This document shows positions 5,060 to 36,245 of a stretch of DNA of 36,245 nt, piece after piece; positions within the stretch are counted from its first letter, which is position 1; every line of letters begins with the position of its first letter. A model generated the notes under the pieces. It did not search any database. It was given only the letters and a program-made list of their open reading frames with translations, and was not told the DNA's origin. A program made the position numbers and the translations under genes. Origin of the DNA: an uncultured Pseudomonadota bacterium (GTDB taxonomy: Bacteria > Pseudomonadota > Gammaproteobacteria > Enterobacterales > Succinivibrionaceae); assembly GCA_900315145.1 (NCBI GenBank), contig OMYE01000011.1:1-36245 (forward strand), written 5' to 3'.

Positions 5060-5473
5060 ATGATTGAACTTACTAAAAGTGATTATGAAGCAATACTGGT
5101 TCATGCAAGGTCAAATTTGCCTGAAGAAGCCTGCGGACTTATCGGTGGAATTGTGGTTAACGGCAATAAGATTATAAAGAAGGTTTATCTGCTGACAAAT
5201 ACTGATCATTCTAATGAACATTTTTCACTTGATCCACGGGAACATCTGAATGCAATAAAAGACATGAGAAGTCATGGTCTTGATCCTTTGGGAAACTGGC
5301 ATTCACATCCTGAATCTCCGTCCAGACCATCAGAAGAGGATAAAAGATTAGCTTACGATTCCAAAGCATCATATTTAATTCTTTCCCTTCAAGATAACGA
5401 TAGTCCCGTCCTTAACTCATTTCATATAGAAAAAAATGAGGTAACTAAAGAAGAGCTGATTATAAAGCAGTAA
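5060..5473 (+). CDS. JAMM (Mov34/MPN/PAD-1, M67) zinc metallopeptidase, stand-alone
   Basis: A 137-residue single-domain protein. The JAMM zinc site is complete: E23 in PEEACGLIGG, H81-S-H83, S91 and D94 in GNWHSHPESPSRPSEED. Family members are zinc isopeptidases or amidases that cut after the C-terminal Gly of ubiquitin-like proteins. Small bacterial ones such as Mec+ or HcyD release an amino acid from a sulfur-carrier protein. Start: ATG with GAGGGGAAG 5-12 nt upstream. No carrier, E1 or sulfur gene lies next to it, so the substrate is unknown. A second JAMM protein with only family-level similarity is at 31672. This one could act on the carrier of that operon, on ThiS or MoaD elsewhere, or on something else. 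Confidence 0.88.
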   Translation: MIELTKSDYEAILVHARSNLPEEACGLIGGIVVNGNKIIKKVYLLTNTDHSNEHFSLDPREHLNAIKDMRSHGLDPLGNWHSHPESPSRPSEEDKRLAYDSKASYLILSLQDNDSPVLNSFHIEKNEVTKEELIIKQ

Positions 5474-6153
5474 ATATCCTGAATGCTATTTATAGCGTGG
5501 TGTGGTGTAGTATCGTATTCTGAGCATATGAATCAGGTATATTCCTGGTTTGACGATATAAAGCATCCTTATCTTTTGAGACTGTACTGTACGTGGTTGT
5601 AAGACTTAAAAGTACCTGATACATACGTTCACTGACAGAAAAAACAGTCTGTCATCTCCTTCTTAAGGCCCCTTTCATGATTTATGTTATTCTTTATCTC
5701 CGGGACCTGATGTCCGGCTGAATTAATTGAAATAAATGCACTTGATAAGCACATGGAAAAAGAATAAACTATCACTTTTATATAAGACAGAAGGTCATTT
5801 TCTGATGACACAGATTATTCCGCCGTCCGATATTCAGGCAGAGTTCATCATATGAATATCAGTTGCAGCTGCTATATACTGAGACAGCTGTTTTTTTGTT
5901 CATAAGGTTTTAGGTGTTTATCTGATGAGATGGAAATAATCAGTCATAATAAACTCTTCTGCTTTGAAATAAAGTCTAAAGTGTTTTTATTGCTTCCGGG
6001 GGCCGGACGCGTGTACTTTATAAAATCTCTGATGTGTGCATCAGTAGACATATAGCGTAAAGTCTCTTTTTCACGTGCTGTCATTTATCAGTTTGTTGTG
6101 GATAATAAACAGTAATTTGATGCGTTTTTTAATTAGATAGGTAGTTATATATT
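5474..6153. other. Gene-less region upstream of purC
   Basis: About 680 bases without a supportable gene. Visible structures are a perfect 7-bp hairpin TGACAGA/TCTGTCA at 5633-5654 with an 8-nt loop and no T run, and a terminator-like hairpin at 5865-5897. I see no PurR-type ACGCAAACG operator before purC. It may be a decayed gene remnant. Confidence 0.5.
5865..5897 (+). terminator. Probable rho-independent terminator
   Basis: CAGCTG at 5866 pairs with CAGCTG at 5885 across a 13-nt loop and is followed by T7. It lies nearly 400 nt after the JAMM gene, so it either ends that transcript or an unrecognised short RNA. Confidence 0.5.
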
Positions 6154-7101
6154 ATGACTTCAGCATTAACTAATACCGAATTTGCTTTTCCTTCACAAAA
6201 GAGTGTGTATCACGGCAAGGTTCGTGATGTTTATAATATCAACGATGAAAAGTTGGTAATGGTAGCTACAGATAGAATTTCCGCTTTTGACGTAATTCTT
6301 CCTGAAGGTATTCCTTTTAAAGGTCAGGTTCTGAACCAGATTGCCGCCAAGTTCCTCGATGCGACTGCTGATATCTGCCCTAACTGGAAACTGGCAACAC
6401 CGGATCCAATGGTAACAGTAGGTGTTATGTGCAAGGGATTCCCTATTGAAATGATTGTTCGTGGATACTTATGCGGCAGTTCATGGAGAGCTTATAAGAG
6501 CGGTGTTCGTGAAATCTGCGGTGTTAAGCTTCCTGAAGGAATGAAGGAAAACCAAAAGTTCCCTGAACCAATTATAACTCCTACCACCAAGGCTGAACTC
6601 GGTCTTCACGATGAAGACATCTCCAAGGAGGAAATTCTGGCTAAGGGACTTGCAACTCCTGAAGAATATGCTGTTCTTGAAAAGTACGCACTGGCTCTGT
6701 TTAAGCGCGGAACTGAAATTGCTGAAAAGAGAGGACTGATTCTTGTTGATACAAAATATGAATTCGGTACGCACAACGGTGAAATCTACCTCATGGACGA
6801 AATCCATACTCCGGATTCAAGTCGCTATTTCTATAAGGACGGTTATGAAGAAAGATTTGCCAAAGGTGAACCTCAGAAGCAGCTTTCCAAGGAATTTGTA
6901 CGTGAATGGCTGATGAGCAACGGTTTCCAAGGTAAAGAAGGTCAGAAGGTTCCTGAAATGACCCCAGAAATCGTTAACTCCATTTCAGAACGTTATCTGG
7001 AACTTTATGAAAATATTATTGGTGAAAAGTTTGAAAAGTCTTCTGACAATGATTTATCAGCAAGAATTGAAAAGAATGTAAAGGATTACCTTGCAAAGTA
7101 A
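6154..7101 (+). CDS. purC: Phosphoribosylaminoimidazole-succinocarboxamide synthase (SAICAR synthetase)
   Basis: Catalyses the ATP-dependent condensation of CAIR with aspartate in purine biosynthesis. At 315 residues it is the longer form, as in Bacteroides and yeast, rather than the ~237-residue E. coli form. Recognisable blocks are YHGKVRDVY (phosphate-binding loop), [40 protein letters not shown] and [13 protein letters not shown]. Start: ATG with an AGGTAG-like ribosome site about 10 nt upstream. It appears monocistronic: a long gene-free region precedes it and a terminator follows within 30 nt. Confidence 0.97.
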
Positions 7102-7131
7102 TTGATTACAGTCTCTTTTGAGTAAAAATGA

Positions 7132-7166
7132 ATGCCGCTGATCTTTTAAGATGGCGGTATTTTTTA
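7132..7166 (+). terminator. Rho-independent terminator of purC
   Basis: ATGCCGC-TG-ATCTT pairs with AAGAT-G-GCGGTAT (one G-U pair, small bulge), followed by a T6 run. Confidence 0.85.
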
Positions 7167-7333
7167 TTTATAAGGATGGCAGAATATATGTTCTATACTG
7201 ATATTCAGTTTTCTGCAGGTGGAAAGACAAAGAGTAGTTTCAGATTCAGAATTCAGGGAATGGTTGTTTGATTTTTTTAGCGAAAAACATAAAATAAGCA
7301 TCTCATAATATTTTACGGAGTATCGGTATAAGC

Positions 7334-8263
7334 ATGCATATAAACAAATATGTAAATACATATGGTGATTATTTAAAGAGGAGGTTCGGACAGAGGGTGC
7401 AGAAACTTTCCCTAAGCGGAAATTTCACCTGTCCGAATCGTGACGGTACTCTTGGCAGAGGAGGCTGCACATTTTGCAATATATCATCATTCTCTGGCAG
7501 AGATAATCAGAGTCTTTCCATTTCTGAGCAGCTTTGTAATGCTAATAAAAAACGCTCCAGTATCTTTCTGGCGTACTTTCAGGCTTATACAAGTACATAT
7601 GCGGAATTTCAGCTTCTGAAGAAACTGTATGATGAGGCTCTTGGTTATCCTGACATTGTGGGACTCTGTGTCGGTACACGGCCTGACTGTGTACCTGACG
7701 AGGTTCTGGATTTGCTTGAAGGGTACATGCATGAAGGCCGGGAGGTATGGCTGGAACTGGGGTTGCAGACTGCCATAGATGAGACTCTGGATTTTATTAA
7801 CCGGCACCATCATTTTTTTCAGTACGCTGATACTGTCAGAAGAGCCAGGGATAGGGGGATTAAAGTATGTACTCATCTTATTATAGGGCTTCCAGGTGAG
7901 GAACTTATACACAATCTGACAACCCTGCAGATGGTTCTTGATGAAGGTATTGATGCTTTGAAGCTACATCAGTTGCATATAGTTAAGGGCAGTGTTATGG
8001 CGAACCAGTACAGACAGGGGTTGATACCGGTGCTTGATATGGAGAGTTATGCCGGAATAGCAGCGAGAATTATTCAGAATACTCCTCCGGATATTCTGTT
8101 CGAAAGAGTCAGTGCTTCGGTACAGGATGATTCTCTCATAGCTCCTATGTGGTCCACACAGCGCTGGCCATGTCTTGACAGAATAGGTGAGATTCTTGCG
8201 GAATCCGGACCCCAGGGTTTTGAAATAGGTAAACCTTACGTGTATGACGGTATAAGTCTTTAA
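7334..8263 (+). CDS. yhcC: Radical SAM protein of the YhcC family (TIGR01212)
   Basis: A 309-residue radical SAM/Elp3-like protein. The cluster cysteines are C33, C45 and C48 in CPNRDGTLGRGGCTFC; this wide first spacing with CPNRDG is diagnostic of YhcC. Further family blocks are GTRPDCVPDEVLDLL, WLELGLQTA and THLIIGLPGE. The precise reaction of YhcC is not established. In E. coli yhcC sits between gltB and arcB; here gltBD lies upstream and arcB downstream, with the JAMM gene, purC and glgC inserted. The ATG matches the family N-terminus (INKYVNTYGDYLKRRFG), but its ribosome site (ACGGAG) is spaced rather far. Confidence 0.93.
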   Translation: MHINKYVNTYGDYLKRRFGQRVQKLSLSGNFTCPNRDGTLGRGGCTFCNISSFSGRDNQSLSISEQLCNANKKRSSIFLAYFQAYTSTYAEFQLLKKLYDEALGYPDIVGLCVGTRPDCVPDEVLDLLEGYMHEGREVWLELGLQTAIDETLDFINRHHHFFQYADTVRRARDRGIKVCTHLIIGLPGEELIHNLTTLQMVLDEGIDALKLHQLHIVKGSVMANQYRQGLIPVLDMESYAGIAARIIQNTPPDILFERVSASVQDDSLIAPMWSTQRWPCLDRIGEILAESGPQGFEIGKPYVYDGISL

Positions 8264-8590
8264 TCTGAACCGGCAGTTTATAAGTGGATTTATTCTGAAT
8301 TCCATTGGCAAAAAACTGTTTGCCGGGGCATTTTCCACCAGCTGAAGAACTGAGAGCTTTTATTCGTTCTTAGCGGATATTTTACGTTATTTATAATATT
8401 TTTTAGCAAACTTGTGTGTTGATACTCAAAGTAAATTCTATATGTACTGTATAATCATCATATTAAACTTTGTGTATGTAAACTATGGTTATTTGTATCA
8501 TCAGAACACAGGGGTGAAGCTGTTCTGGGATGCTTCATAATCTTTCCTGTTTTATAGTTTAGTGGAATACTTTTTGGAAAATATAAGAAT
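8264..8590. other. Intergenic region between yhcC and glgC
   Basis: No gene. A perfect TATAAT at 8450-8455 could be a -10 element for glgC, but no good -35 lies at the right distance. GGCA/TGCC pairing near 8310-8325 could be a weak terminator for yhcC. Confidence 0.45.
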
Positions 8591-9904
8591 ATGTCTGAAT
8601 CATTAAGCGCACGTCAAGCCAGTAAGAAAACCATGGCGATTATATTAGCAGGAGGCCGTGGAAGCAGACTACATCAACTGACTGATTCAAGAGCAAAACC
8701 GGCGGTATATTTCGGTGGAAAATTCAGAATTATTGATTTCGCTCTTTCAAACTGTATCAATTCTGGTATTCGCAAGATAGGTGTTGTAACCCAGTATAAG
8801 TCACACAGCCTGCTCAGACATCTTCAGGCCGGCTGGTCTTTCCTTCGTAACCAGTTTAATGAATTTCTAGATTTGCTTCCGGCACAGCAACGCATTGATG
8901 AGGTGCACTGGTATCGCGGTACAGCGGACGCTGTTTTCCAAAACATAGATATCATTAAGGATCACCGGCCGCAGTTTATTCTTATTCTAGCCGGAGACCA
9001 TGTGTATAAGATGGATTATGCCAAACTTATTCTTGATCATCTGCAGCACGGCGGACCTTTAACCATTGCCTGTGTGCCTACTCCAAGGGCGGACGCCAGT
9101 GCATACGGCATAATGACAGTGGATGATTCCGGGCTCATTACAAGTTTTAGCGAAAAGCCTAAAAATCCTACTCCGATGCCGAATAATTCAGAAATGTGTC
9201 TGGCTTCGATGGGAATTTATGTTTTTGATGCCAAGTACCTGTACGATGTGCTTTATGAGGATGAACAGCTTGAAGATTCCAGCCATGATTTCGGGATGGA
9301 CATTATTCCCCGTCTGGTGAGTCTCGGTAAGGCACATGCTCATGACTTCAGTAAGTCGTGTGTATGTAACCGGGCAAAAAATCAGATATACTGGCGCGAT
9401 GTCGGAACTGTGGATTCTTTCTGGGCGGCGAATATGGACCTGGCATCTGTAACTCCTGATTTGGATATATATGATCAGGAATGGCCTATCTGGACCTATC
9501 AGACCCAGCTTCCAAGTGCCAAGTACGTGCAGGATTTAAACGGCGCATCAACCATTGTACGTAACAGCGTGATTGCCGCAGGGGTGATAGTCAGCGGTTC
9601 ATCAATCTGTTCCAGTGTGTTGTTTTATAATGTCCGCGTACATTCATTCACCTTTATTAATGAAGTTGTAGCCTTTCCTTCATGTACTATTCATCGTGGA
9701 TGCCGTATTACCAGAGTTATACTTGATCGAGGTTGTGAATTGCCGAGAAATCTGGTTGTCGGGGAAAGCAAGGAGGACGATGAACGCAGATTTTACCGTT
9801 CAGAGGGCGGGGTGACGCTGATTACCAGAAAGATGCTGGCTGATCTCCGGAAGAAGGAACCGTGGCTCTTTGAGAATTTTGATGAATACTGCCATCAGTC
9901 CTAG
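8591..9904 (+). CDS. glgC: Glucose-1-phosphate adenylyltransferase (ADP-glucose pyrophosphorylase)
   Basis: Makes ADP-glucose for glycogen synthesis. At 437 residues it is close to the E. coli enzyme (431). The N-terminal nucleotidyltransferase signature IILAGGRGSRLHQLTDSRAKPA is intact, as are GTADAVFQN, ILAGDHVYKMDY, the glucose-1-phosphate-binding FSEKP, and WRDVGTVDSFW. The C-terminal left-handed beta-helix of the regulatory part follows (STIVRNSVIAAG, VILDRGCELP). No other glycogen gene is adjacent. It lies between yhcC and arcB, which are neighbours in E. coli, and only 51 nt before arcB, so read-through into arcB is possible. Confidence 0.97.
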   Translation: MSESLSARQASKKTMAIILAGGRGSRLHQLTDSRAKPAVYFGGKFRIIDFALSNCINSGIRKIGVVTQYKSHSLLRHLQAGWSFLRNQFNEFLDLLPAQQRIDEVHWYRGTADAVFQNIDIIKDHRPQFILILAGDHVYKMDYAKLILDHLQHGGPLTIACVPTPRADASAYGIMTVDDSGLITSFSEKPKNPTPMPNNSEMCLASMGIYVFDAKYLYDVLYEDEQLEDSSHDFGMDIIPRLVSLGKAHAHDFSKSCVCNRAKNQIYWRDVGTVDSFWAANMDLASVTPDLDIYDQEWPIWTYQTQLPSAKYVQDLNGASTIVRNSVIAAGVIVSGSSICSSVLFYNVRVHSFTFINEVVAFPSCTIHRGCRITRVILDRGCELPRNLVVGESKEDDERRFYRSEGGVTLITRKMLADLRKKEPWLFENFDEYCHQS

Positions 9905-27822: not shown

Positions 27823-29943
27823 GTGGCACATACTATAATGCTTATACCTATCGGAACCGGAGTAGGTGTAACATCAATCAGTTTAGGTTTAGTAAGAGCC
27901 TTCGCAAGAGAAGGCGTAAAAGTAAGCTTCTTCAAGCCTGTTGCACAGCCAAAGCCTTCATATGTAGGTCCGGAAGCCAGCACATCTGTAATCAAGGTAG
28001 GTTCAGGTCTTGATCTTCCTGAACCAATTGAAGCTTCACGCATGGAATCTTTATTAAGTTCCGGAGATGAATCAACTTTATTGGAAGAGGTTATTGCCAA
28101 TTTTGAAGCTCACGTTGCGTCAAGTCAGGCGGATGTTGTTATTGTTGAAGGTCTAGTTCCTGTTGAAAAACATCCTTTTGCCAATAAACTTAATAAGCAG
28201 ATTGCCAGCGGTATTGATGCCGACATCGTGTTTGTAACTCAGCCTGGTAACGGCGGAATTCAGGAAATCCGCGAAAGAATCGAACTTGCTGTTAATACTT
28301 ATGCTGACAGCACTCAGAAGAGAATTCTTGGCTGCATTATCAACAAGGTAGGGGCTAATGTTGACAGTCAGGGTATCCCTACTCAGCTTGAAGTAGGCAA
28401 GCCATCAGGAGATCTGAAGGAGCTTAATCTTGACGGTATCGCACAGATTCTGGCAACCATTCCTTGGAATGCAGACCTTAATGCTGCCCGTGCCAGTGAT
28501 TTGGCTTCATACCTCCAGTGTCAGGTGCTGAATGAGGGAGAACTGGCCACCCGCCGTCTCTCAGAAGTTGTGTTCTGTGCCCGTGATGTTCAGAACATGG
28601 TTGATTATATCAAGCCAGGTTCACTGCTGGTTACCTCCGGTGACAGATCAGACATTATTATTTCCATTGCTCTTGCAGCTATGAACGGAACCAAGATCGG
28701 TGCTTTACTTCTGACCGGTGGATACAATCTTGATGAAAGAGTGAAGAAACTGTGTGAACAGGCATTTGCTACAGGCTTACCTATTCTTCAGACAGAAGAA
28801 CATACCTGGCAGACAGCTATTGATTTACAGCATTTCAATACTGAAATTCCTGCTGATGATGAGGAAAGAATTAATTTAATTGCGGATTACGTTGCCGGCT
28901 TTATTGACAAGAACTGGCTGGAAACCCAGTCTGCTCAGAATGCCCATGTAAGACTGTTAAGTCCAGCAGCATTCCGCTTCAAGTTAACTGAACGTGCAAG
29001 ATCAGAAAGAAAGAGAATTGTTCTTCCGGAAGGTAATGAACCACGTACTGTAAAGGCTGCCGCCATCTGTGCTAGCCGCGGTATAGCCACTCCTGTACTT
29101 CTGGGTAATCCTGAAGAAATTCAGCGTGTAGCTGAACAGCAGGGGGTTGTTCTCGGTGAAGGGGTGGAAATCATTGATCCGGTTGCTTCACGTGAGAAGT
29201 ATGTTGATCGTCTTGTTGAACTCCGTAAGAGTAAGGGTCTTACCCCTGAAGCTGCTCGCGAACAGCTTGAAGACAATGTTGTTCTCGGTACCATGATGAT
29301 TGAAAGAAATGAGGTTGACGGTCTGGTTTCAGGTGCAGTACATACAACTGCCAACACCATCAGACCTCCGTTACAGATTATCAAGACTGCTCCAGGATCA
29401 TCTCTGGTATCTTCTGTATTCTTCATGCTTTTACCTGATCAGGTTCTTGTATATGGTGACTGCGCAATTAATCCTGACCCTAATGCTGAACAGCTGGCTG
29501 AAATCGCTATTCAGTCTTCAGATACAGCCAAGGCCTTCGGAATTGAACCTCGTGTAGCAATGCTTTCATACTCTACCGGTACTTCAGGCAAGGGTGAGGA
29601 TGTTGAAAAGGTTCGTCAGGCTACTGCCATAGCCAAGGAAAAGCGTCCTGATCTAGTTATCGACGGTCCGTTACAGTACGATGCTGCCATTATGGCTGAT
29701 GTTGCCGCTTCAAAGGCTCCTGGTTCACCTGTAGCAGGTAAGGCAACAGTATTCATTTTCCCTGATTTGAATACCGGTAATATTGCATATAAGGCAGTTC
29801 AGCGTTCAGCCAAGCTTGTTTCCATCGGTCCTATGCTTCAGGGTATGAAGAAGCCTGTAAACGACCTGTCACGTGGCGCTCTGGTTGACGATATTGTATA
29901 TACCATCGCTATAACAGCAATTCAGGCTCAACAGAACAAGTAA
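27823..29943 (+). CDS. pta: Phosphate acetyltransferase
   Basis: Interconverts acetyl-CoA and acetyl phosphate in mixed-acid fermentation. 706 residues, the long three-domain form of Enterobacteria: an N-terminal P-loop-like domain ([22 protein letters not shown]), a central DRTGG domain ([18 protein letters not shown]), and the C-terminal catalytic PTA_PTB domain ([78 protein letters not shown]). GTG start with AAAGGGGAG 8 nt upstream. ackA, usually immediately upstream, is not in the window. A terminator follows 25 nt downstream. Confidence 0.97.
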
Positions 29944-29967
29944 TACAATTTTTTTCTGAACAAAGTT

Positions 29968-30003
29968 AAGGCTCTTGATCCAGGTGATTGAGGGCCTTTT
30001 TTG
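29968..30003 (+). terminator. Rho-independent terminator of pta
   Basis: AAGGCTCT pairs with AGGGCCTT (one G-U) around a loop that can pair further, followed by T6. Confidence 0.85.
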
Positions 30004-30160
30004 TATCCTATTTGCGGGCGGATAACTGTGTCATTACTGATTATGTTTCTGATGACAGTTTTTCCGCTGAAAAGAAAAACACAATAATCCGGTTGTGGTT
30101 ATTATTCCGGAAGTCCTGATTAAATACAGAAAAAATCCTTAAAACAATGTTAAATTATTG

Positions 30161-30189
30161 TTGACTAATATACTAGGAAATGATTTAAT
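30161..30189 (+). promoter_or_regulatory. Distal promoter candidate of the metY operon
   Basis: TTGACT - 17 nt - TTTAAT, about 240 nt upstream of metY. Confidence 0.5.
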
Positions 30190-30293
30190 GTCACACCAAT
30201 TCACTATGAAATAATTTTGATTATTTTCTGACATTATCAATAATACTTTTTTAAGTAACAAAAACATTTTTAAAATAAATCATACTAAACCTA

Positions 30294-30322
30294 TTTACAT
30301 ACTATGATATTAATTCTATAAT
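30294..30322 (+). promoter_or_regulatory. Proximal promoter of the metY operon
   Basis: TTTACA - 17 nt - TATAAT. It would give a leader of about 100 nt before the metY ATG. Confidence 0.75.
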
Positions 30323-30431
30323 CCGAAACATGAAGTTGCTTAAGGATTACAGATCGGAAGATACCGCTGATTCTCCAAGTCCTGACAGTGATAATTTTGA
30401 CGTGCAATATATTTAGAAATAAAGGTTTTAT

Positions 30432-31682
30432 ATGACACGAAACTGCGGGTTTAATACTTTACTGCTACATGGAAAAGGAACCGGGGGTTTTGCTGAGAGA
30501 GAAATTCTTCCACCGGTTTCTCAGGGGACTGCTTTTCAGTATGAAAGTATGGAAGACCTTGAAAGCGTGTTTGCCCATAGAAAAACAGGTTTTGCATACA
30601 CCCGTATCGGTAACCCTACCATTGCAGCATTTGAGCAGAAAATCAACGCCTTAGAAGGTGGTTTCGGGGCTATATGTACGGGCAGCGGTATGGCTGCAGT
30701 AAGCGGAGCTCTTCTGACAGTGTGTCAGAGCGGAGATGAAATTATTGCCGGCTCCGGAATGTACGGCGGAACTATCAGACTTCTCCGTAATTTTGAGCGT
30801 CTGGGAATACGCACAGTATTTACCCCAAAACTCAATGCTGAGAATGTCAGTGCGCTGATCAACGAGAGAACAAGAGTCGTGTTCGGGGAACTTATCGGTA
30901 ATCCTTCTCTGAATGTTCTGGATGTTCCCGCAGTGTCAGCAGTGGCACACGAACACGGTGTTCCGTTATTCGTGGATTCCACTACTGCGACTCCCTATAT
31001 AGCAAGACCTCTGGAATTGGGAGCAGACGTGGTTATTCATTCTACTTCAAAGTACATAAACGGAACAGGAAGTGCTATCGGCGGAATGATTATTGACGGC
31101 GGCAGATTCAACTGGAAAGCAGAAAAGCATGGAGCTTTAGCTGATTTTGTCCAGTACGGCAGAATGGCTTTTTCTGTTAGAGCCAGAACTGAGATATGCA
31201 GTAATCTTGGCGGTTGTATTTCACCGTTTAATGCTTTTATTTCCCATGTGGGGGTAGATACGCTGGGACTCAGAATGGAGCGTATCTGTGAAAATGCCGC
31301 TGCTCTCGCGGAGCGGCTTGATAAGGAAAAGGATATATCGGTTAACTATCTTACCCTTAAGCATCATCCCGATCATGAGTATGTGACCGGTGAACTGAAC
31401 GGATACGGTGGTGGAATTCTGACTATCAGAGCCGGTTCGAAAGAGAGAGCATTTGAGATTATAAATTCACTTAAATATGTGAAAATCGCGAGCAATCTCG
31501 GTGATGTCAGAACGCTGGTAATTCATCCGGCCTCAACACTTTATCGTCATAACAGCAGGCATGAGGCGGAAGCTGCCGGAGTATATGAGGATACCATCCG
31601 CATAAGTGTGGGTATTGAAAATAAAGAAGATTTAATAGAGGACTTTTTAGAAGCCATCGCAAAGAGCAGACATGAACAGTAA
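30432..31682 (+). CDS. metY: O-acetylhomoserine sulfhydrylase, MetY type
   Basis: PLP enzyme of the Cys/Met-metabolism family that replaces the acetoxy group of O-acetylhomoserine with sulfur to give homocysteine; 416 residues. The PLP lysine is K207 in VIHSTSKYINGTGSAIGG. Other blocks are the N-terminal GFNTLLLHG, AYTRIGNPT, TGSGMAAVSGALL, VDSTTATPYI and LGDVRTLVIHPASTLYRH. The long region after the PLP lysine, including DFVQYGRMAFSVRARTEICSNLGG, is typical of MetY rather than MetB or MetC. In Wolinella a MetY uses a protein thiocarboxylate (HcyS-COSH) as sulfur donor; the next genes suggest the same here. AAAGG lies 6 nt before the ATG. The last 11 bases overlap the next gene. Confidence 0.93.
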   Translation: MTRNCGFNTLLLHGKGTGGFAEREILPPVSQGTAFQYESMEDLESVFAHRKTGFAYTRIGNPTIAAFEQKINALEGGFGAICTGSGMAAVSGALLTVCQSGDEIIAGSGMYGGTIRLLRNFERLGIRTVFTPKLNAENVSALINERTRVVFGELIGNPSLNVLDVPAVSAVAHEHGVPLFVDSTTATPYIARPLELGADVVIHSTSKYINGTGSAIGGMIIDGGRFNWKAEKHGALADFVQYGRMAFSVRARTEICSNLGGCISPFNAFISHVGVDTLGLRMERICENAAALAERLDKEKDISVNYLTLKHHPDHEYVTGELNGYGGGILTIRAGSKERAFEIINSLKYVKIASNLGDVRTLVIHPASTLYRHNSRHEAEAAGVYEDTIRISVGIENKEDLIEDFLEAIAKSRHEQ

Positions 31683-32139
31683 TCTGCATGCCACTGTTCC
31701 CGTGAATGTGGCAGTTTCTGAAGATGTATTGAAGAAAATCCGGGAGCATGTGTTATGCGGGTATCCCGGAGAGGTATGCGGAATACTGCTCGGAAACATT
31801 GAGGTGATAACAGCCGGAACGGTTGATATCTCCGATTATGTTCCTTTGGATAACACTGTCAGAGGTGATGCTACGCATAAATCATTTCTGGTAGATTCTC
31901 TCGAATTCTATCAAATGGAGCGACAGTGGCTTGATAAAAAGAGGTTGGTAGCCGGATTCTGTCATTCACATCCGGACTGCAGGGCTGTACCGTCACAGGC
32001 AGACGTGACAGCAATGATACCGGGGCTTGTTTATCTCATAGTTTCGGTAACTGACGGTCATGTTATGCAGCCAAGAGGCTGGCATAAAAAAAATACTGGT
32101 AACTATATTCAGGAGTTGACGGTAACCGTAAACAGATAA
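31672..32139 (+). CDS. JAMM metalloprotease of the sulfur-carrier pathway (HcyD/Mec+-like)
   Basis: 155-residue single JAMM domain with the complete zinc motif: E34 (YPGEVCGILLG), H98-S-H100, S108 and D111 (CHSHPDCRAVPSQADVTAM). Family members next to a sulfur carrier and MetY (HcyD in Wolinella) or CysM (Mec+ in Mycobacterium) hydrolyse the amide between the carrier C-terminal Gly and the new amino acid. Here it should release homocysteine. It might also cut the fused carrier encoded by the next gene after its Gly-Gly. The start overlaps the metY stop by 11 nt, so translation is coupled. It has an N-terminal extension relative to the orphan JAMM at 5060. Confidence 0.88.
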   Translation: MNSNLHATVPVNVAVSEDVLKKIREHVLCGYPGEVCGILLGNIEVITAGTVDISDYVPLDNTVRGDATHKSFLVDSLEFYQMERQWLDKKRLVAGFCHSHPDCRAVPSQADVTAMIPGLVYLIVSVTDGHVMQPRGWHKKNTGNYIQELTVTVNR

Positions 32140-32165
32140 TAACAGAGCACACAGGACAATTGTTT

Positions 32166-33626
32166 ATGAAAGTTTATATATCATCTACGCTACGTTTTTT
32201 CTTTGAACGAAGTTATGAAGTTGAAGTACAGGTTCAGAAAAACACATTAAAGGACATTCTGGAACAGCTTATAAAAATGTTTCCGGACGCTGAGAAGGGA
32301 CTTTTTGAAAATAATGAATTGAGATCATTTATCAGAATTTTCGTGGCTGGAGAAGACTGGACAGACAAAAGCTTTCATGAACGTGAATTCAGCGATGATA
32401 AGCAGGTTCTGATATTGCCTCTGATAGCCGGCGGTTCTTCGAATGAAAGTATTATTTCCGAGGAGAGACGCAAGTCAGTAACCCTTGATTCCGATGAAAT
32501 TGAGCGTTACAGCAACCACCTGCTTCTTCGGGATATCGGTGTTGCCGGCCAGAAAAGAATAAAGGCCTCTAAAGTGGCTGTTGCCGGAATAGGAGCTCTA
32601 GGAAGTCAGGTGGTTCAGTGTCTTGCTGCAGCAGGAGTAGGCACCATTAAAATTATCGATTTTGATCTGGTGGCTCTTCGTAATCTGCAGAATCAGGTGC
32701 TTTACGGATTAAGAGATGTTAAGCGTCCCAAGGTGGCTTCAGCCAAAGACCGAATAAAGGCGGTAAACCGCGGTATCGAAGTACTGGTTGAGAAGGAGAA
32801 TATTACTGCCGACAATGCAGTGGGACTTATAGAAGACTGCGATCTGGTTATCGATTGTACCGATAACTACAAGACGAGATATCTCTTAAGTGATGCCTGT
32901 GTCATTGCAAGAATTCCGCTGGTCTTCGGGGCGATATATCAGTTTGAAGGTCTGGTGAGCGTGTTTAACTATAAAGACGGGCCATGCCTCAGATGTCTTT
33001 TCCCGGAACCGCCTCAGCCCGGTCTGATGCCGACCTGTGCGGAAAACGGTGTCGTAAGTTCTCTCCCGGGGATTATCGGAGGAATACAGGCTAACGAGGC
33101 TCTGAAACTTATTATCGGCACCGGGGAAGTTCTTTCCGGAAAGCTTTTCAGAATGGATATTCTGAATCTTCAAACTGAAATTCTTAATGTGACCAGAAAT
33201 GAAGAGTGCCGGATCTGTGGCAAGAATTCATCAGTTATCAGGGTCGAGGATTTTGATTATGACGAATTCTGTGGTTTGAAGCAGGATGATACCGAGATAC
33301 CGGTTGAGACCATAAGTCCTGAGGATCTGCTGCGAAGAATAGAGAACCACGATCCTATTACGATTGTTGATGTCAGAGAACCTCATGAAAGAACAATACT
33401 GAGATTCTCCGGAGCTGTGGTTATTCCGATTGGTCAGCTTGCCAGAAGACAGAAGGAGCTCTGTGCGGAACACGATACCGTAATTATCTGTAAGGAAGGG
33501 AAACGAAGCATACTTGCAGTGAGAACACTGAAGGAAGCTGGTTACCTTGGGCCTTTATACAGTCTCAAAGGCGGGCTTGACTCAATGAAAGATATTATTT
33601 TATCCGGTGAAGGAGGATGGATTTAG
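32166..33626 (+). CDS. Ubiquitin-like sulfur carrier - E1-like adenylyltransferase - rhodanese fusion
   Basis: 486 residues, three domains. Residues 1-90 are a MoaD/ThiS-like beta-grasp domain ending LPLIAGG, with the diglycine at 89-90 followed by a Ser/Glu-rich linker. Residues 110-345 are a ThiF/MoeB-type E1: ATP loop GIGALG (141-146), DFDLVALRNLQNQ, DCTDNYKTR, C291 (PTCAENGVVSSLPGIIGG), and zinc pairs C274/C277 and C348/C351. Residues 378-486 are a rhodanese with active-site C442 in CKEGKRS. The E1 would adenylate the carrier Gly and the rhodanese would deliver persulfide sulfur to make a thiocarboxylate. No internal start separates the domains, so free carrier would need cleavage after GG. 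ATG 32166 (AGGA 9 nt upstream) is preferred to TTG 32160. Confidence 0.9.
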   Translation: MKVYISSTLRFFFERSYEVEVQVQKNTLKDILEQLIKMFPDAEKGLFENNELRSFIRIFVAGEDWTDKSFHEREFSDDKQVLILPLIAGGSSNESIISEERRKSVTLDSDEIERYSNHLLLRDIGVAGQKRIKASKVAVAGIGALGSQVVQCLAAAGVGTIKIIDFDLVALRNLQNQVLYGLRDVKRPKVASAKDRIKAVNRGIEVLVEKENITADNAVGLIEDCDLVIDCTDNYKTRYLLSDACVIARIPLVFGAIYQFEGLVSVFNYKDGPCLRCLFPEPPQPGLMPTCAENGVVSSLPGIIGGIQANEALKLIIGTGEVLSGKLFRMDILNLQTEILNVTRNEECRICGKNSSVIRVEDFDYDEFCGLKQDDTEIPVETISPEDLLRRIENHDPITIVDVREPHERTILRFSGAVVIPIGQLARRQKELCAEHDTVIICKEGKRSILAVRTLKEAGYLGPLYSLKGGLDSMKDIILSGEGGWI

Positions 33627-33677
33627 TAACCGGATGTTGTGAGAAGTTATATTCTTTTTTTTATAGGAGTTTTTTTA

Positions 33678-34634
33678 ATGTCAACAAATACAAGTGATGC
33701 ATCTCAGATTAATGCTTTAGGAAAGGCGGCAGCCTATAATCTTGCGAATGTTACCAAGACCAGACCTCAGTTTGGTTCAATTACCCCTAAGTGGCTCACC
33801 AGATTCCTCGAGTTCAAGGGACTTGAAACAGGTATCTTCAGAGTAAACAAGGTGGTTGAAGGTGAAACCCCGCTGGATGTTTTATGCAGTCAGACAAAGA
33901 AGTCTGATATTATCCCTGAAGGCTATGTTGAATACGAAACCGAACCTCGTGAATATCAGCTGAACTCAATTTCCACCATCATCAATGTTAACACTGCGGT
34001 TGAAGATGTATACAGTTCACCATATGATCAGGTTCAGGAACAGCTTTCTCTTGCCATTGAATCACTGAGAGAACGTCAGGAAAGCCAGCTTATTAATAAC
34101 GATGATTACGGTCTGTTGAAGAATATTGCTGATTCTCAGAGAATCCAGACCAGAAACGGTGCTCCTACACCTGATGACCTTGATGAACTTATCACCAAGG
34201 TATGGAAGGAACCTTCATTCTTCCTGGCTCATCCTAGAGCAATTGCTGCATTTGAAAGAGAATGCACCAAGAGAGGTGTTCCTCCAGTAGTGGTAAATCT
34301 TGCCGGCGGTAATTTCCTTACCTGGAGAGGTATTCCTATTATTCCTACCGACAAACTCCTTGTAGACGGTCTCAAGAATCCGACCTCCCAGAGCGGTAAG
34401 ACCAATATTCTTCTTGTAAGAACAGGTGAGGCCAAGCGCGGTGTAATCGGTCTGTTCCAGGCTGGTCTTAAGAATGAGCACTCCAGAGGTCTCTCAGTCC
34501 GCTTCCGCGGAATTGATAACAAGGGTGTTGCCTCATATCTGCTGTCATTATACTGCTCTGCAGCAATTTTAGCTGATGATGCTATTGCTGTTCTTGAAGA
34601 TGTAGAGGTTGGTGAATACTATGACTACGACTAA
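33678..34634 (+). CDS. Family 2A encapsulin shell protein
   Basis: 318 residues with an HK97-type phage-capsid fold that self-assembles into a protein nanocompartment. Recognised from the N-terminal arm LGKAAAYNLANVTKTRPQ, ITPKWLTRFLEFKGLETGIFRVNK, the helix-rich ASPYDQVQEQLSLAIESLRERQE-like segment, FFLAHPRAIAAFERECTKRG and GVIGLFQAGL. There is no cyclic-nucleotide-binding insertion, so family 2A (SrpI-like) rather than 2B. Family 2A shells enclose a cysteine desulfurase and have been linked to sulfur storage; the next gene is that desulfurase. ATG 33678 has TAGGAG 8 nt upstream; an in-frame GTG at 33639 would add a spurious hydrophobic leader. The gene overlaps its cargo gene by 14 nt. Confidence 0.9.
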   Translation: MSTNTSDASQINALGKAAAYNLANVTKTRPQFGSITPKWLTRFLEFKGLETGIFRVNKVVEGETPLDVLCSQTKKSDIIPEGYVEYETEPREYQLNSISTIINVNTAVEDVYSSPYDQVQEQLSLAIESLRERQESQLINNDDYGLLKNIADSQRIQTRNGAPTPDDLDELITKVWKEPSFFLAHPRAIAAFERECTKRGVPPVVVNLAGGNFLTWRGIPIIPTDKLLVDGLKNPTSQSGKTNILLVRTGEAKRGVIGLFQAGLKNEHSRGLSVRFRGIDNKGVASYLLSLYCSAAILADDAIAVLEDVEVGEYYDYD

Positions 34635-36245
34635 TCAGGACGGAAGTTTTGAGCAGCTTGCCGGCGTGCCGTCGGCAGCGCAGCTGACTCTTCTGGCGAA
34701 TCAGCTTTTTCCGGATCTGACCGAAGGTGTTGACATATACGGAACAGGTGCTGAGGCAGCTGATGTCCGTGAGAACGAGCAGGCGGCGTACGCTGCTGCG
34801 GCAGAAGCCGACGGCTTTGCCCCTCCTGCCGGAGCCCCTTCCTTTAACTGGGAGGATCCGTTTGCCTACGGCGGCAGTGCTGCCGGTGCCGAGGGTGTTT
34901 TTGAAACAGCAGGTGTTACCGGAGATAACGGAAGTACCGGTGGAACAGCTTATGCTCCGAAGGTGCTTTCCGCCGAACAGGCGAAAGCTCTGGAAGCACA
35001 GCAGAATCAGACTGATGCTCCGGAGAAGGCAGTTGTATCAGGCAGTCAGACCGGAAGTGAAGGCTCTATAAGGATCGGCACTAAAACTCTGGCACAGATA
35101 CGTGATGATTTTCCTATTCTGGCAGAAGAGATTAATGGTCATCCACTGGTATGGCTTGATAATGGTGCAACCACTCAGCGTCCGCAGCAGGTGATTGACA
35201 GAATTGCTCATTACTACCGCTATGAAAATTCCAATGTACACCGCGGTGCCCATACCTTAGCAGCTAGATCAACAGATGCATATGAAAATGCCAGACGCAT
35301 TGTTAAGGACTTTATCGGGGCATCATCAGCACAGGAAATCGTCTTTGTGCGCGGTACTACCGAAGGTATTAATCTGGTGGCTAATTCATACGTGCTGCCC
35401 CAGTTAAAACCTGGTGATGAAATTATTGTCTCTATTCTTGAGCATCATGCCAACATTGTTCCATGGCAGCTGATTGCCCAGAAAACCGGTGCAGTAATCA
35501 AGGTTATTCCGTGTGATGCGACAGGACAGCTGATTCTCAGTGAATATGAAAAACTGTTCACCAGAAAAACCAGATTTGTTTCTGTAACCCATGTTTCCAA
35601 TGTACTCGGAACCGTTACTCCTGTGGAGGAGTTGATTGCTATTGCCCACCGTCATGGTGTAAGAATCATGATTGACGGAGCCCAGTCTGTTGCCCATATC
35701 CCTGTTAATGTAACTGCATTGGATGCCGATTTCTTCGTGTTCTCAGGACACAAGATTTATGCTCCTACCGGTATCGGGGTTGTGTACGGCAAGAAGGAGC
35801 TGCTTCAGGCTGCAGAACCTTATCATGGTGGTGGAAACATGATTGCTGATGTTACATTCGAGCGCAGGTACCGGCAGTATTGCTGATGCTGTCGGACTCG
35901 GAGCTGCTCTAGAGTATCTTTCAGGTATAGGTATGCCTTGTGTATACCGCCGTGAACATGAGCTTATACAGTACGGCCTTAAGGAACTCAGAACTGTGCC
36001 CGGGCTTACTCTTGTAGGTACTGCCGCCAACAAGTCATCTGCGCTGGCATTTAAGCTTGCCGGTCATTCTGATGATGAGGTTGGCAAGGTGCTTGATTCA
36101 TACGGCATTGCTGTGAGAACGGGACATCACTGTGCTCAGCCTGTGTTGAGACATTTCGGTTATGAGAGTGCTGTAAGACCGACACTGGGTATTTATAACT
36201 CTGAAAGCGATATTGACAGACTGGTAAGAGCTTTGAGAACTCTGT
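34621..36245 (+). CDS. Encapsulated SufS-like cysteine desulfurase, frameshifted and 3'-partial
   Basis: PLP enzyme that takes sulfur from cysteine and leaves alanine. Residues 1-150 are a disordered Ala/Gly/Pro/Glu-rich extension with two hydrophobic islands (about 16-33, AAQLTLLANQLFPDL; 74-83, SFNWEDPFAYG), the layout of family 2A encapsulin cargo-loading domains. The SufS fold follows: WLDNGATTQRP, SNVHRGAH, H275 in LEHHANIVPW, DGAQSVAH and PLP lysine K378 in SGHKIYAPTG. The frame breaks at about 35858-35864. Frame 1 reads VTFER and stops at 35886, while frame 2 resumes with SAGTGSIADAVGLGAALEYL and carries the active-site Cys in RTGHHCAQPV. About 10 codons typical of the family are missing. 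It runs off the window a few residues before the expected end. Confidence 0.9.

Follow-up and report, generated by a model that had tools for sequence, protein, structure and literature searches.

A conserved variant of the family 2A desulfurase encapsulin operon carries thiocarboxylate carrier genes and MetY

At one end of a contig from an uncultured bacterium of the Succinivibrionaceae lies a conserved variant of the family 2A desulfurase encapsulin operons, joined by genome context to the thiocarboxylate carrier systems. The contig (OMYE01000011.1 of GenBank assembly GCA_900315145.1, positions 1 to 36,245 of the forward strand) is the window analyzed here. In this operon the genes for a shell protein and a cysteine desulfurase stand beside those for a MetY-like sulfhydrylase, a JAMM protease, and a fusion of a ubiquitin-like carrier, an E1 enzyme, and a rhodanese. 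We infer from this arrangement that sulfur may flow from cysteine to homocysteine through the encoded proteins.

The five genes run in one direction with gaps of -11, +26, +51, and -14 nucleotides (nt), in exact agreement with a first-pass annotation of the window. The operon and the features tied to it are as follows.

30432 to 31682, + strand: metY, an O-acetylhomoserine sulfhydrylase-like pyridoxal phosphate enzyme of a distinct clade (PF01053, Cys_Met_Meta_PP, 347.6 bits)
31672 to 32139, + strand: JAMM1 protease (Prok-JAB; PF14464, 57.5 bits), overlapping metY by 11 nt
32166 to 33626, + strand: E1R, the fusion of ubiquitin-like carrier, E1 (MoeB/ThiF), and rhodanese (ThiF and Rhodanese matches), with an in-frame TTG at 32160
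32427 to 32435, + strand: carrier end Ala-Gly-Gly within the fusion (Ala90-Gly91-Gly92, numbered from 32160), followed by a linker of variable length
33678 to 34634, + strand: family 2A encapsulin shell protein (SrpI-like; NF041162, 496 bits)
34621 to 35886, + strand: N-terminal part of a SufS-type cysteine desulfurase with a cargo-like extension (PF00266; frame broken near 35864)
35864 to 36245, + strand: C-terminal part of the desulfurase with the catalytic cysteine region, in another frame (PF00266 positions 249 to 371 of 371)
36147 to 36245, + strand: 99 nt identical to the end of contig C167 (L120), an exact end overlap
5060 to 5473, + strand: JAMM2, the type of the second carrier module, alone in this genome (PF14464, 83.5 bits)

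The shell belongs to encapsulin family 2A, as had been proposed: it passes the curated family model NF041162 (cut-off 380 bits), and a Pfam search returned the SrpI-like family only and no cNMP domain, the domain content that marks family 2A. Its closest solved chains are 8t6r and 6x8m (SrpI). In genome G027 the middle of the encapsulin gene is a run of N, and an insertion there was considered and rejected. Residues 22 to 31 of the desulfurase, within its N-terminal cargo-like extension, read LTLLANQLFP and resemble the loading motif LARLANEFFS of SrpI-associated desulfurases (PMC8049743, excerpt), and the enzyme is predicted to be loaded as cargo. A strict pattern of this motif is found in 37 of the 53 desulfurases longer than 480 residues, with starts picked by script.

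The desulfurase gene is present and overlaps the encapsulin gene by 14 nt, as first described, but close to the end of the contig a 35-nt gap disrupts its reading frame. The frame stops at 35886 after 421 residues, upstream of the catalytic cysteine, and the remainder continues in another frame to the end of the contig. The absent 35 nt, near 35864-35866, are present in all three relatives aligned (L009, L010, and L011). Since a full-length protein of 554 residues exists that is 99% identical over 99% of the query (cluster P0121, 44 member sequences), the break is probably local to this assembly. The broken pieces score 517 and 196 bits on NF041166, below its cut-off of 800, with the 421-residue part covering profile positions 207 to 486 of 623. 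At the opposite end of the contig a glutamate synthase large subunit is split over two overlapping frames (2-2931), which suggests problems with the assembly toward the ends of contigs.

The operon extends past the five genes first assigned to it, which are its opening part. Contig C167 of the same genome, read in reverse, opens with the last 99 nt of the window and then goes on with the operon: the desulfurase end, a serine acetyltransferase, a ThiS-like carrier, a second E1 without rhodanese, and TusA (named by similarity to the L009 copy, itself a Pfam TusA match). In L010 and L011 ten genes lie on one strand, namely MetY, JAMM1, fusion, encapsulin, desulfurase, serine acetyltransferase, ThiS, E1, JAMM2, and TusA. 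The JAMM2 of the window, 64% identical to the JAMM2 of a relative, stands alone 25 kb from the operon; in G024, G025, and G050 it lies inside the operon in the order E1-JAMM2-TusA.

Within the Succinivibrionaceae, the presence of the encapsulin and of the carrier genes coincides. Encapsulin matches occur in 12 of the 56 genomes (10 over the cut-off and 2 as pieces), and the fusion adjoins the encapsulin in all 12. A full-length fusion (at least 462 bits) and a JAMM over the cut-off are each found in exactly those 12 genomes, with a weak JAMM piece in one more, G046. MetY of the operon type (at least 420 bits) is present in 11 of these genomes, and the remaining one, G055, has broken pieces; the other 44 genomes have none, their best match scoring 315 bits. 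Were genomes independent, the chance probability of identical sets of 12 in 56 would be 1.8e-12; related genomes are not independent. The positive genomes span genera g1, g10, g11, g12, and g14, and g11 and g12 also include members without the set.

When named genomes were scanned with the fusion, 63 loci were recovered (L009-L071). Sixty of these (L009-L068) are at least 55% identical to the fusion over most of the query; L069 is 38% identical, and L070 and L071 match the E1 part only. As all were found through the fusion, counts among them are conditional on it, and the encapsulin-first searches are the independent check. Gaps and neighbors in relatives refer to the ends of tblastn matches rather than to annotated genes, and phyla are as labeled in the sequence records. 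These labels cover three phyla: Ruminobacter, Lachnospiraceae (with Butyrivibrio and Pseudobutyrivibrio), Eubacterium, Clostridia, Fibrobacter, and an uncultured proteobacterium. Many of the hosts are rumen bacteria. The Fibrobacter and Ruminobacter records are metagenome-assembled, several Lachnospiraceae records bear the names of isolates or strains, and the whole gene set is present in Pseudobutyrivibrio xylanivorans DSM 14809.

Gene order in the 60 loci is strongly conserved. The encapsulin comes next after the fusion, 44-278 nt away, in all 53 loci with at least 300 nt downstream, and the remaining 7 loci end 2-243 nt past the fusion. A JAMM lies within 2.5 kb upstream of the fusion in all 58 loci with at least 1.4 kb upstream; of the other two, L017 has it and L046, with 1,382 nt, does not. 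The desulfurase follows the encapsulin in 47 of 47, and a serine acetyltransferase is found within 5.6 kb in 43 of 44, the one in L030 being 6.3 kb away. All ten gene types are present in 28 of the 38 loci readable for at least 2.5 kb upstream and 7.5 kb downstream, and MetY in 29 of them. Directly before JAMM1 stands MetY in 39 of the 60 loci, a CysN-like gene in 4, JAMM2 in 4, and a CysK-like, a sulfite reductase-like, and a serine acetyltransferase gene in 1 each, with no query gene within 1.2 kb in 9 and a contig end in 1.

Fourfold-site identity falls to 22-37% in six cross-phylum pairs (fusion, encapsulin, and MetY), and the encapsulins in these comparisons remain 89-93% identical. Gene order has thus outlasted the near-saturation of silent sites, and recent spread of a single copy is unsupported as the sole cause of the conservation. 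Between L010 (Ruminobacter) and L023 (Lachnospiraceae) the encapsulins are 92% and the fusions 62% identical, with fourfold-site identities of 34% and 22%, and the second E1 is nearly as conserved as the shell (91%). The shell is thus constrained much more strongly than the majority of its neighboring genes. Closer to home, between the window and L010, fourfold sites are 29% identical in MetY (163 sites, near saturation) and 61% identical in the encapsulin (145 sites). A chance neighborhood is rejected by the conserved order and the co-occurrence; the parts form one conserved genetic unit, and in this the first-pass annotation is supported.

The Pseudobutyrivibrio core is embedded in an extensive island of sulfur genes (L220 1438-19591; L034 2815-7401): sulfate adenylyltransferase-like genes lie upstream of it, and downstream come MetY along with sulfite reductase-like, TusA, thioredoxin-like, ThiS, E1, JAMM2, and siroheme-type genes (names by reading).

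Among the Pseudomonadota, the added genes are not a general trait of family 2A. In a sample of 398 proteobacterial genomes from across the phylum, 17 have a shell-family match, the genome of the window included; of the other 16 loci 14 were fetched, with G083 and G206 left out. A desulfurase is present in all 14 and a serine acetyltransferase in 13, and ordinary MetY2 matches occur in 2. The fusion, JAMM, ThiS, second E1, TusA, and operon-type MetY were found in none of the 14 (tblastn at 1e-4, best hit per place, a search in which the short ThiS and TusA can be missed). L218 and L219, which are among the 14, resemble family 2B in the greater length of their shell frames. The co-occurrence proposed for a survey of family 2A loci therefore holds in an identical set of 12 among the 56 family genomes and does not extend to the other proteobacterial loci, and fusion, JAMM, and carriers as a general family 2A trait are rejected for the Pseudomonadota. 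The published family 2A operon consists of serine acetyltransferase, rhodanese, and desulfurase (PMC8346489, excerpt); given the lack of the added genes from these 14 loci, it is the base plan, and the operon of the window an extension of it.

Both carriers associated with the operon are encoded in a blocked form. Residues 19 to 92 of the fusion match the SAMP1 and moaD_arch carrier models, both below their cut-offs, and ThiS (PF02597) is the precomputed assignment for many close relatives of the fusion, for example P0002. With an E1, a C-terminal rhodanese with its active cysteine, and a ubiquitin-like carrier ending in Gly-Gly, the fusion has the architecture of Urm1-Uba4/MOCS3. An AlphaFold2 model resolves it into three parts (mean predicted local distance difference test (pLDDT) 84.4, predicted template modeling score 0.67), with a pLDDT below 50 at the Ala-Gly-Gly junction. 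In Foldseek the best PDB match of this model is Uba4 (6yub), the enzyme with E1 and rhodanese domains that serves Urm1, and MoeB and ThiF come next; the root mean square deviation of 17.6 over 430 columns means that the domains of the Uba4 match are placed differently. In an alignment of 68 fusions, the carrier Ala-Gly-Gly, the rhodanese Cys444, and Cys293, which we take to be the E1 loop cysteine, are invariant in all 68, and the stretch after the Gly-Gly varies in length. The fused carrier is blocked by this linker, and the standalone carriers by 1-13 residues beyond the last Gly-Gly in 43 of 43. Each carrier would therefore need a cut, presumably by a JAMM protease, before it could be adenylated and loaded. 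The JAMM motif (HSHP..S..D-type) is intact in 61 of 61 JAMM1 sequences, the window included, and in 42 of 42 JAMM2 sequences. JAMM1 itself is only 39-43% identical among close relatives (L010 7374-7739, L009 5644-6135, and window 31672-32139), with the catalytic motif kept and the neighboring genes 76-97% identical.

Tentatively, and with a little less than even confidence, we propose that the operon moves cysteine sulfur by way of the shell desulfurase, the rhodanese, the carrier of the fusion, MetY, and JAMM to homocysteine. The predicted encapsulated desulfurase would free sulfur from cysteine, and the sulfane sulfur would leave the shell as a small species. The rhodanese domain would pick it up and load the carrier of the fusion as a thiocarboxylate, whose sulfur MetY would transfer to activated homoserine, and the JAMM protease would then release homocysteine. 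The standalone ThiS, E1, JAMM2, and TusA would supply the same MetY by a second path of the Wolinella type, and in the derived gene order this MetY may use both carriers. The acceptor needed to rebuild cysteine would come from serine acetyltransferase. This proposal builds on the genes, their order and conservation, the catalytic motifs intact in relatives, and the blocked carriers. Benisch and others (2024) reportedly found elemental sulfur stored in an Acinetobacter shell. In the mechanism that we adopt the encapsulin would be a sulfur bank filled from cysteine, from which the carrier, encoded as a self-loading fusion, would withdraw sulfur for MetY, and perhaps for a cysteine synthase, without cystathionine; we hold such a compartment-fed transsulfuration to be somewhat less likely than not. 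A transfer from desulfurase to E1-rhodanese to carrier is known in the relay of NFS1, MOCS3, and URM1/MOCS2A (PMC3625234, excerpt).

Several points weigh against this flow to homocysteine, beginning with the shell. The pore of SrpI measures 3.7 A (PMC8049743, excerpt), and behind such a pore the rhodanese could not reach the desulfurase unless it docks outside; the exit of sulfur from the shell is the weak link of the mechanism. The desulfurase copy of the window is itself broken. The main weakness lies with MetY, through the company that it keeps in a split cluster and a looser tie to the fusion than that of serine acetyltransferase. As to the enzyme itself, phylogenetic analysis placed the MetYs of the loci in one clade (54 rows, support 100/99), apart from ordinary MetYs, and the window MetY scores 405 bits on TIGR01326, below the cut-off of 495.1, which the other two of the genome pass with 626 and 588. 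It is not specially close to the Wolinella MetY (266 bits to 3ri6, with 317 to the best chain). MetY is absent from the stretch in 9 of the 38 fully readable loci, 4 of which have one elsewhere in the genome, and serine acetyltransferase is the more constant neighbor of the fusion. In L040 a CysK-like gene takes the place of MetY (name by reading). L069, a gammaproteobacterial record without encapsulin, has a CysM-like gene (also named by reading), a JAMM, and a carrier-E1-rhodanese fusion (6666-9434), a compact CysO/Mec/MoeZ-like set.

The place of MetY varies as well. Fibrobacter L053, L059, and L060 have it next to TusA. Four Pseudobutyrivibrio genomes (G453-G456) place it several kb past the desulfurase and serine acetyltransferase, at a distance of 0.9-1.3 kb ahead of TusA-ThiS-E1-JAMM2. 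In G457 the cluster is split: about 0.9 Mb separates the encapsulin core from a block that holds MetY together with the ThiS module, an arrangement like that of the row 4e operons (PMC1779556, excerpt). In L220 (G453) and L224 (G457) a sulfite reductase-like gene lies between MetY and the ThiS set, with a thioredoxin-like gene within it (names by reading), and MetY adjoins TusA-ThiS-E1-JAMM2 in Succinivibrionaceae G023, G027, G028, G037, and G048. The variable place of MetY, the split in G457, and the replacements in L040 and L069 suggest that the older partner of MetY is probably the ThiS module. The fusion had at first been taken for the HcyS/HcyF pair of Wolinella; by gene content, the standalone ThiS, E1, and JAMM2 come closer to HcyS/HcyF/HcyD, and it is with these that MetY stays in G457.

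Finally, the operon would add a route to homocysteine rather than be the sole one, since the genome has two ordinary O-acetylhomoserine sulfhydrylases and several cysteine synthase-type genes of the PALP family. It also has a MetA-family homoserine acyltransferase. PF01053 has 8 matches in the genome, of which the 4 full-length ones are one cystathionine gamma-synthase/gamma-lyase-like enzyme, which adjoins cysteine-synthase-like genes, and three MetY-like enzymes. The suggested search for metB and metC in the same genome thus gave a single enzyme of the synthase/lyase type and no separate MetC of the PF01053 family in an assembly 94% complete; PatB-type lyases were not searched for.

These observations bear on a different division of labor, rather unlikely in our estimate, in which a sulfur store with withdrawals that rebuild cysteine fits nearly as well as the flow to homocysteine. 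ThiS, E1, JAMM2, and TusA, in some hosts with sulfite reductase, would feed MetY, and JAMM1, the fusion, the shell, the desulfurase, and serine acetyltransferase would form a store that rebuilds cysteine through cysteine synthase and O-acetylserine. In Pseudobutyrivibrio, and also in several loci of Succinivibrionaceae and Fibrobacter, MetY keeps company with TusA-ThiS-E1-JAMM2, even when the cluster is split. This argues for two such jobs, as do the near-constant serine acetyltransferase and the CysK-like-JAMM1-fusion and CysM-like-JAMM-fusion arrangements of L040 and L069. Published precedents exist for both halves, in the row 4e operons and the row 4c cysteine synthase operons (PMC1779556, excerpt) and in the loading of CysO by MoeZR for cysteine synthesis in mycobacteria (PMC3227635, excerpt). 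Against this, MetY and JAMM1 are direct neighbors in 39 of the 60 loci, and no cysteine synthase was seen among the operon reading frames of the window or of C167. Making cysteine from cysteine sulfur would also be futile unless storage parts the two in time.

The genes may instead share no more than a need under sulfur shortage, with MetY using free sulfide and the desulfurase and fusion serving tRNA thiolation, cofactors, or iron-sulfur clusters. We consider such co-regulation improbable. The S. elongatus shell is upregulated on sulfate starvation (PMC8049743, excerpt), a CysN-like gene directly precedes JAMM1 in four loci, and E1-rhodanese proteins elsewhere act in molybdenum cofactor synthesis and tRNA thiolation (PMC3625234, excerpt). 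Housekeeping thiolation would not be expected to track the encapsulin, however, and the 44 family genomes without encapsulin lack the full-length fusion, a JAMM over the cut-off, and this type of MetY. Protein tagging, in which the carrier is attached to lysines (for example of shell or cargo) in the manner of Urm1-Uba4 or SAMP and removed by JAMM, could draw on the Uba4 fold match and on the matches of both JAMMs to the haloarchaeal desampylase model, below its cut-off, and is made very improbable by the steady company of sulfur enzymes (MetY, serine acetyltransferase, TusA, and CysN- and CysK-like proteins).

A thiocarboxylate pathway to homocysteine in Wolinella was reportedly described by Krishnamoorthy and Begley in 2011, and we take its carrier to be blocked after Gly-Gly like those found here. 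The operon resembles that pathway and the row 4e operons, which include Wolinella and whose E1s lack rhodanese (PMC1779556, excerpt), in combining MetY with a ThiS-like carrier, an E1, a JAMM, and a TusA/SirA-like protein, and differs in being joined to an encapsulin, a desulfurase, and a second carrier fused to E1-rhodanese. This Wolinella-type module of MetY, standalone carrier, E1, and JAMM forms a single run in relatives; in the genome of the window it is split over the window and C167, with JAMM2 at 5060. With the family 2A desulfurase encapsulins (SrpI of S. elongatus; operons surveyed in PMC8346489) the operon shares a shell that passes NF041162, an adjacent SufS-type desulfurase with an N-terminal extension and a LARLANEFFS-like motif, and a serine acetyltransferase nearby, to which it adds JAMM, the carrier-E1-rhodanese fusion, MetY, and the second carrier module. 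Mycobacterial CysO-CysM-Mec-MoeZR (PMC3227635, excerpt) likewise combines JAMM, E1-rhodanese, and carrier, whereas here the carrier is fused to E1 and the window has no CysM; the encapsulin-less L069 comes nearest to it. Urm1-Uba4/MOCS3 shares the E1-rhodanese architecture and fold (6yub) and, in the human case, a desulfurase as sulfur donor; here, in contrast, the carrier is fused ahead of E1, a JAMM is present, and the setting is a bacterial sulfur-metabolism operon. The open-licence literature searched contains no work pairing an encapsulin with a thiocarboxylate or a sulfhydrylase, in keeping with the first-pass annotation, which was aware of no described system uniting these parts. The works there that mention an encapsulin along with homocysteine or the rumen look unrelated, judged by their titles and the openings of their abstracts.

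Two candidate signals precede the operon.

29968 to 29998, + strand: terminator-like hairpin between pta and the operon, a 13-pair stem with a T-run (consensus match only)
30294 to 30322, + strand: sigma-70-like site TTTACA-17-TATAAT, 11 of 12 consensus matches, of a kind near chance level in the region

The clear promoters of the first-pass annotation are not established, the 11-of-12 site notwithstanding: promoter-like sites in 28000-36245 number 20, against 15.0 (standard deviation 3.9) in shuffles. Terminator-like sites there number 5, against 6.5 (standard deviation 2.3), also near chance, and 2 of the 5 lie inside metY. No riboswitch or T-box above the gathering score was found in the window and 16 relatives searched whole, and riboswitch control is rejected. 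Within the operon the search gave only GA-cis RNAs, in two of these 16 relatives (L037 9454-9535 and L025 13380-13460); one match falls between fusion and encapsulin, the other ahead of the second E1. In L009 about 0.6 kb (6136-6725) separates JAMM1 from the fusion, and a second promoter is possible there, so that a single transcript is not certain everywhere. The contig of the window also carries the RcsF, UPF0227, DUF412, and ArcB-type kinase families, which we take to be gammaproteobacterial.

A specific rhodanese has been proposed as the sulfur acceptor of desulfurase encapsulins (PMC8346489, excerpt). Every readable locus of the kind described here links a rhodanese to the shell gene, within a carrier-loading machine that stands beside homocysteine- and O-acetylserine-type enzymes, and the question of the acceptor is thereby reduced to a handful of purified proteins. 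If the proposed flow is true, it names the missing acceptor of the encapsulated desulfurases and would join nanocompartments to ubiquitin-like sulfur carriers, a link that we did not find in the literature searched.

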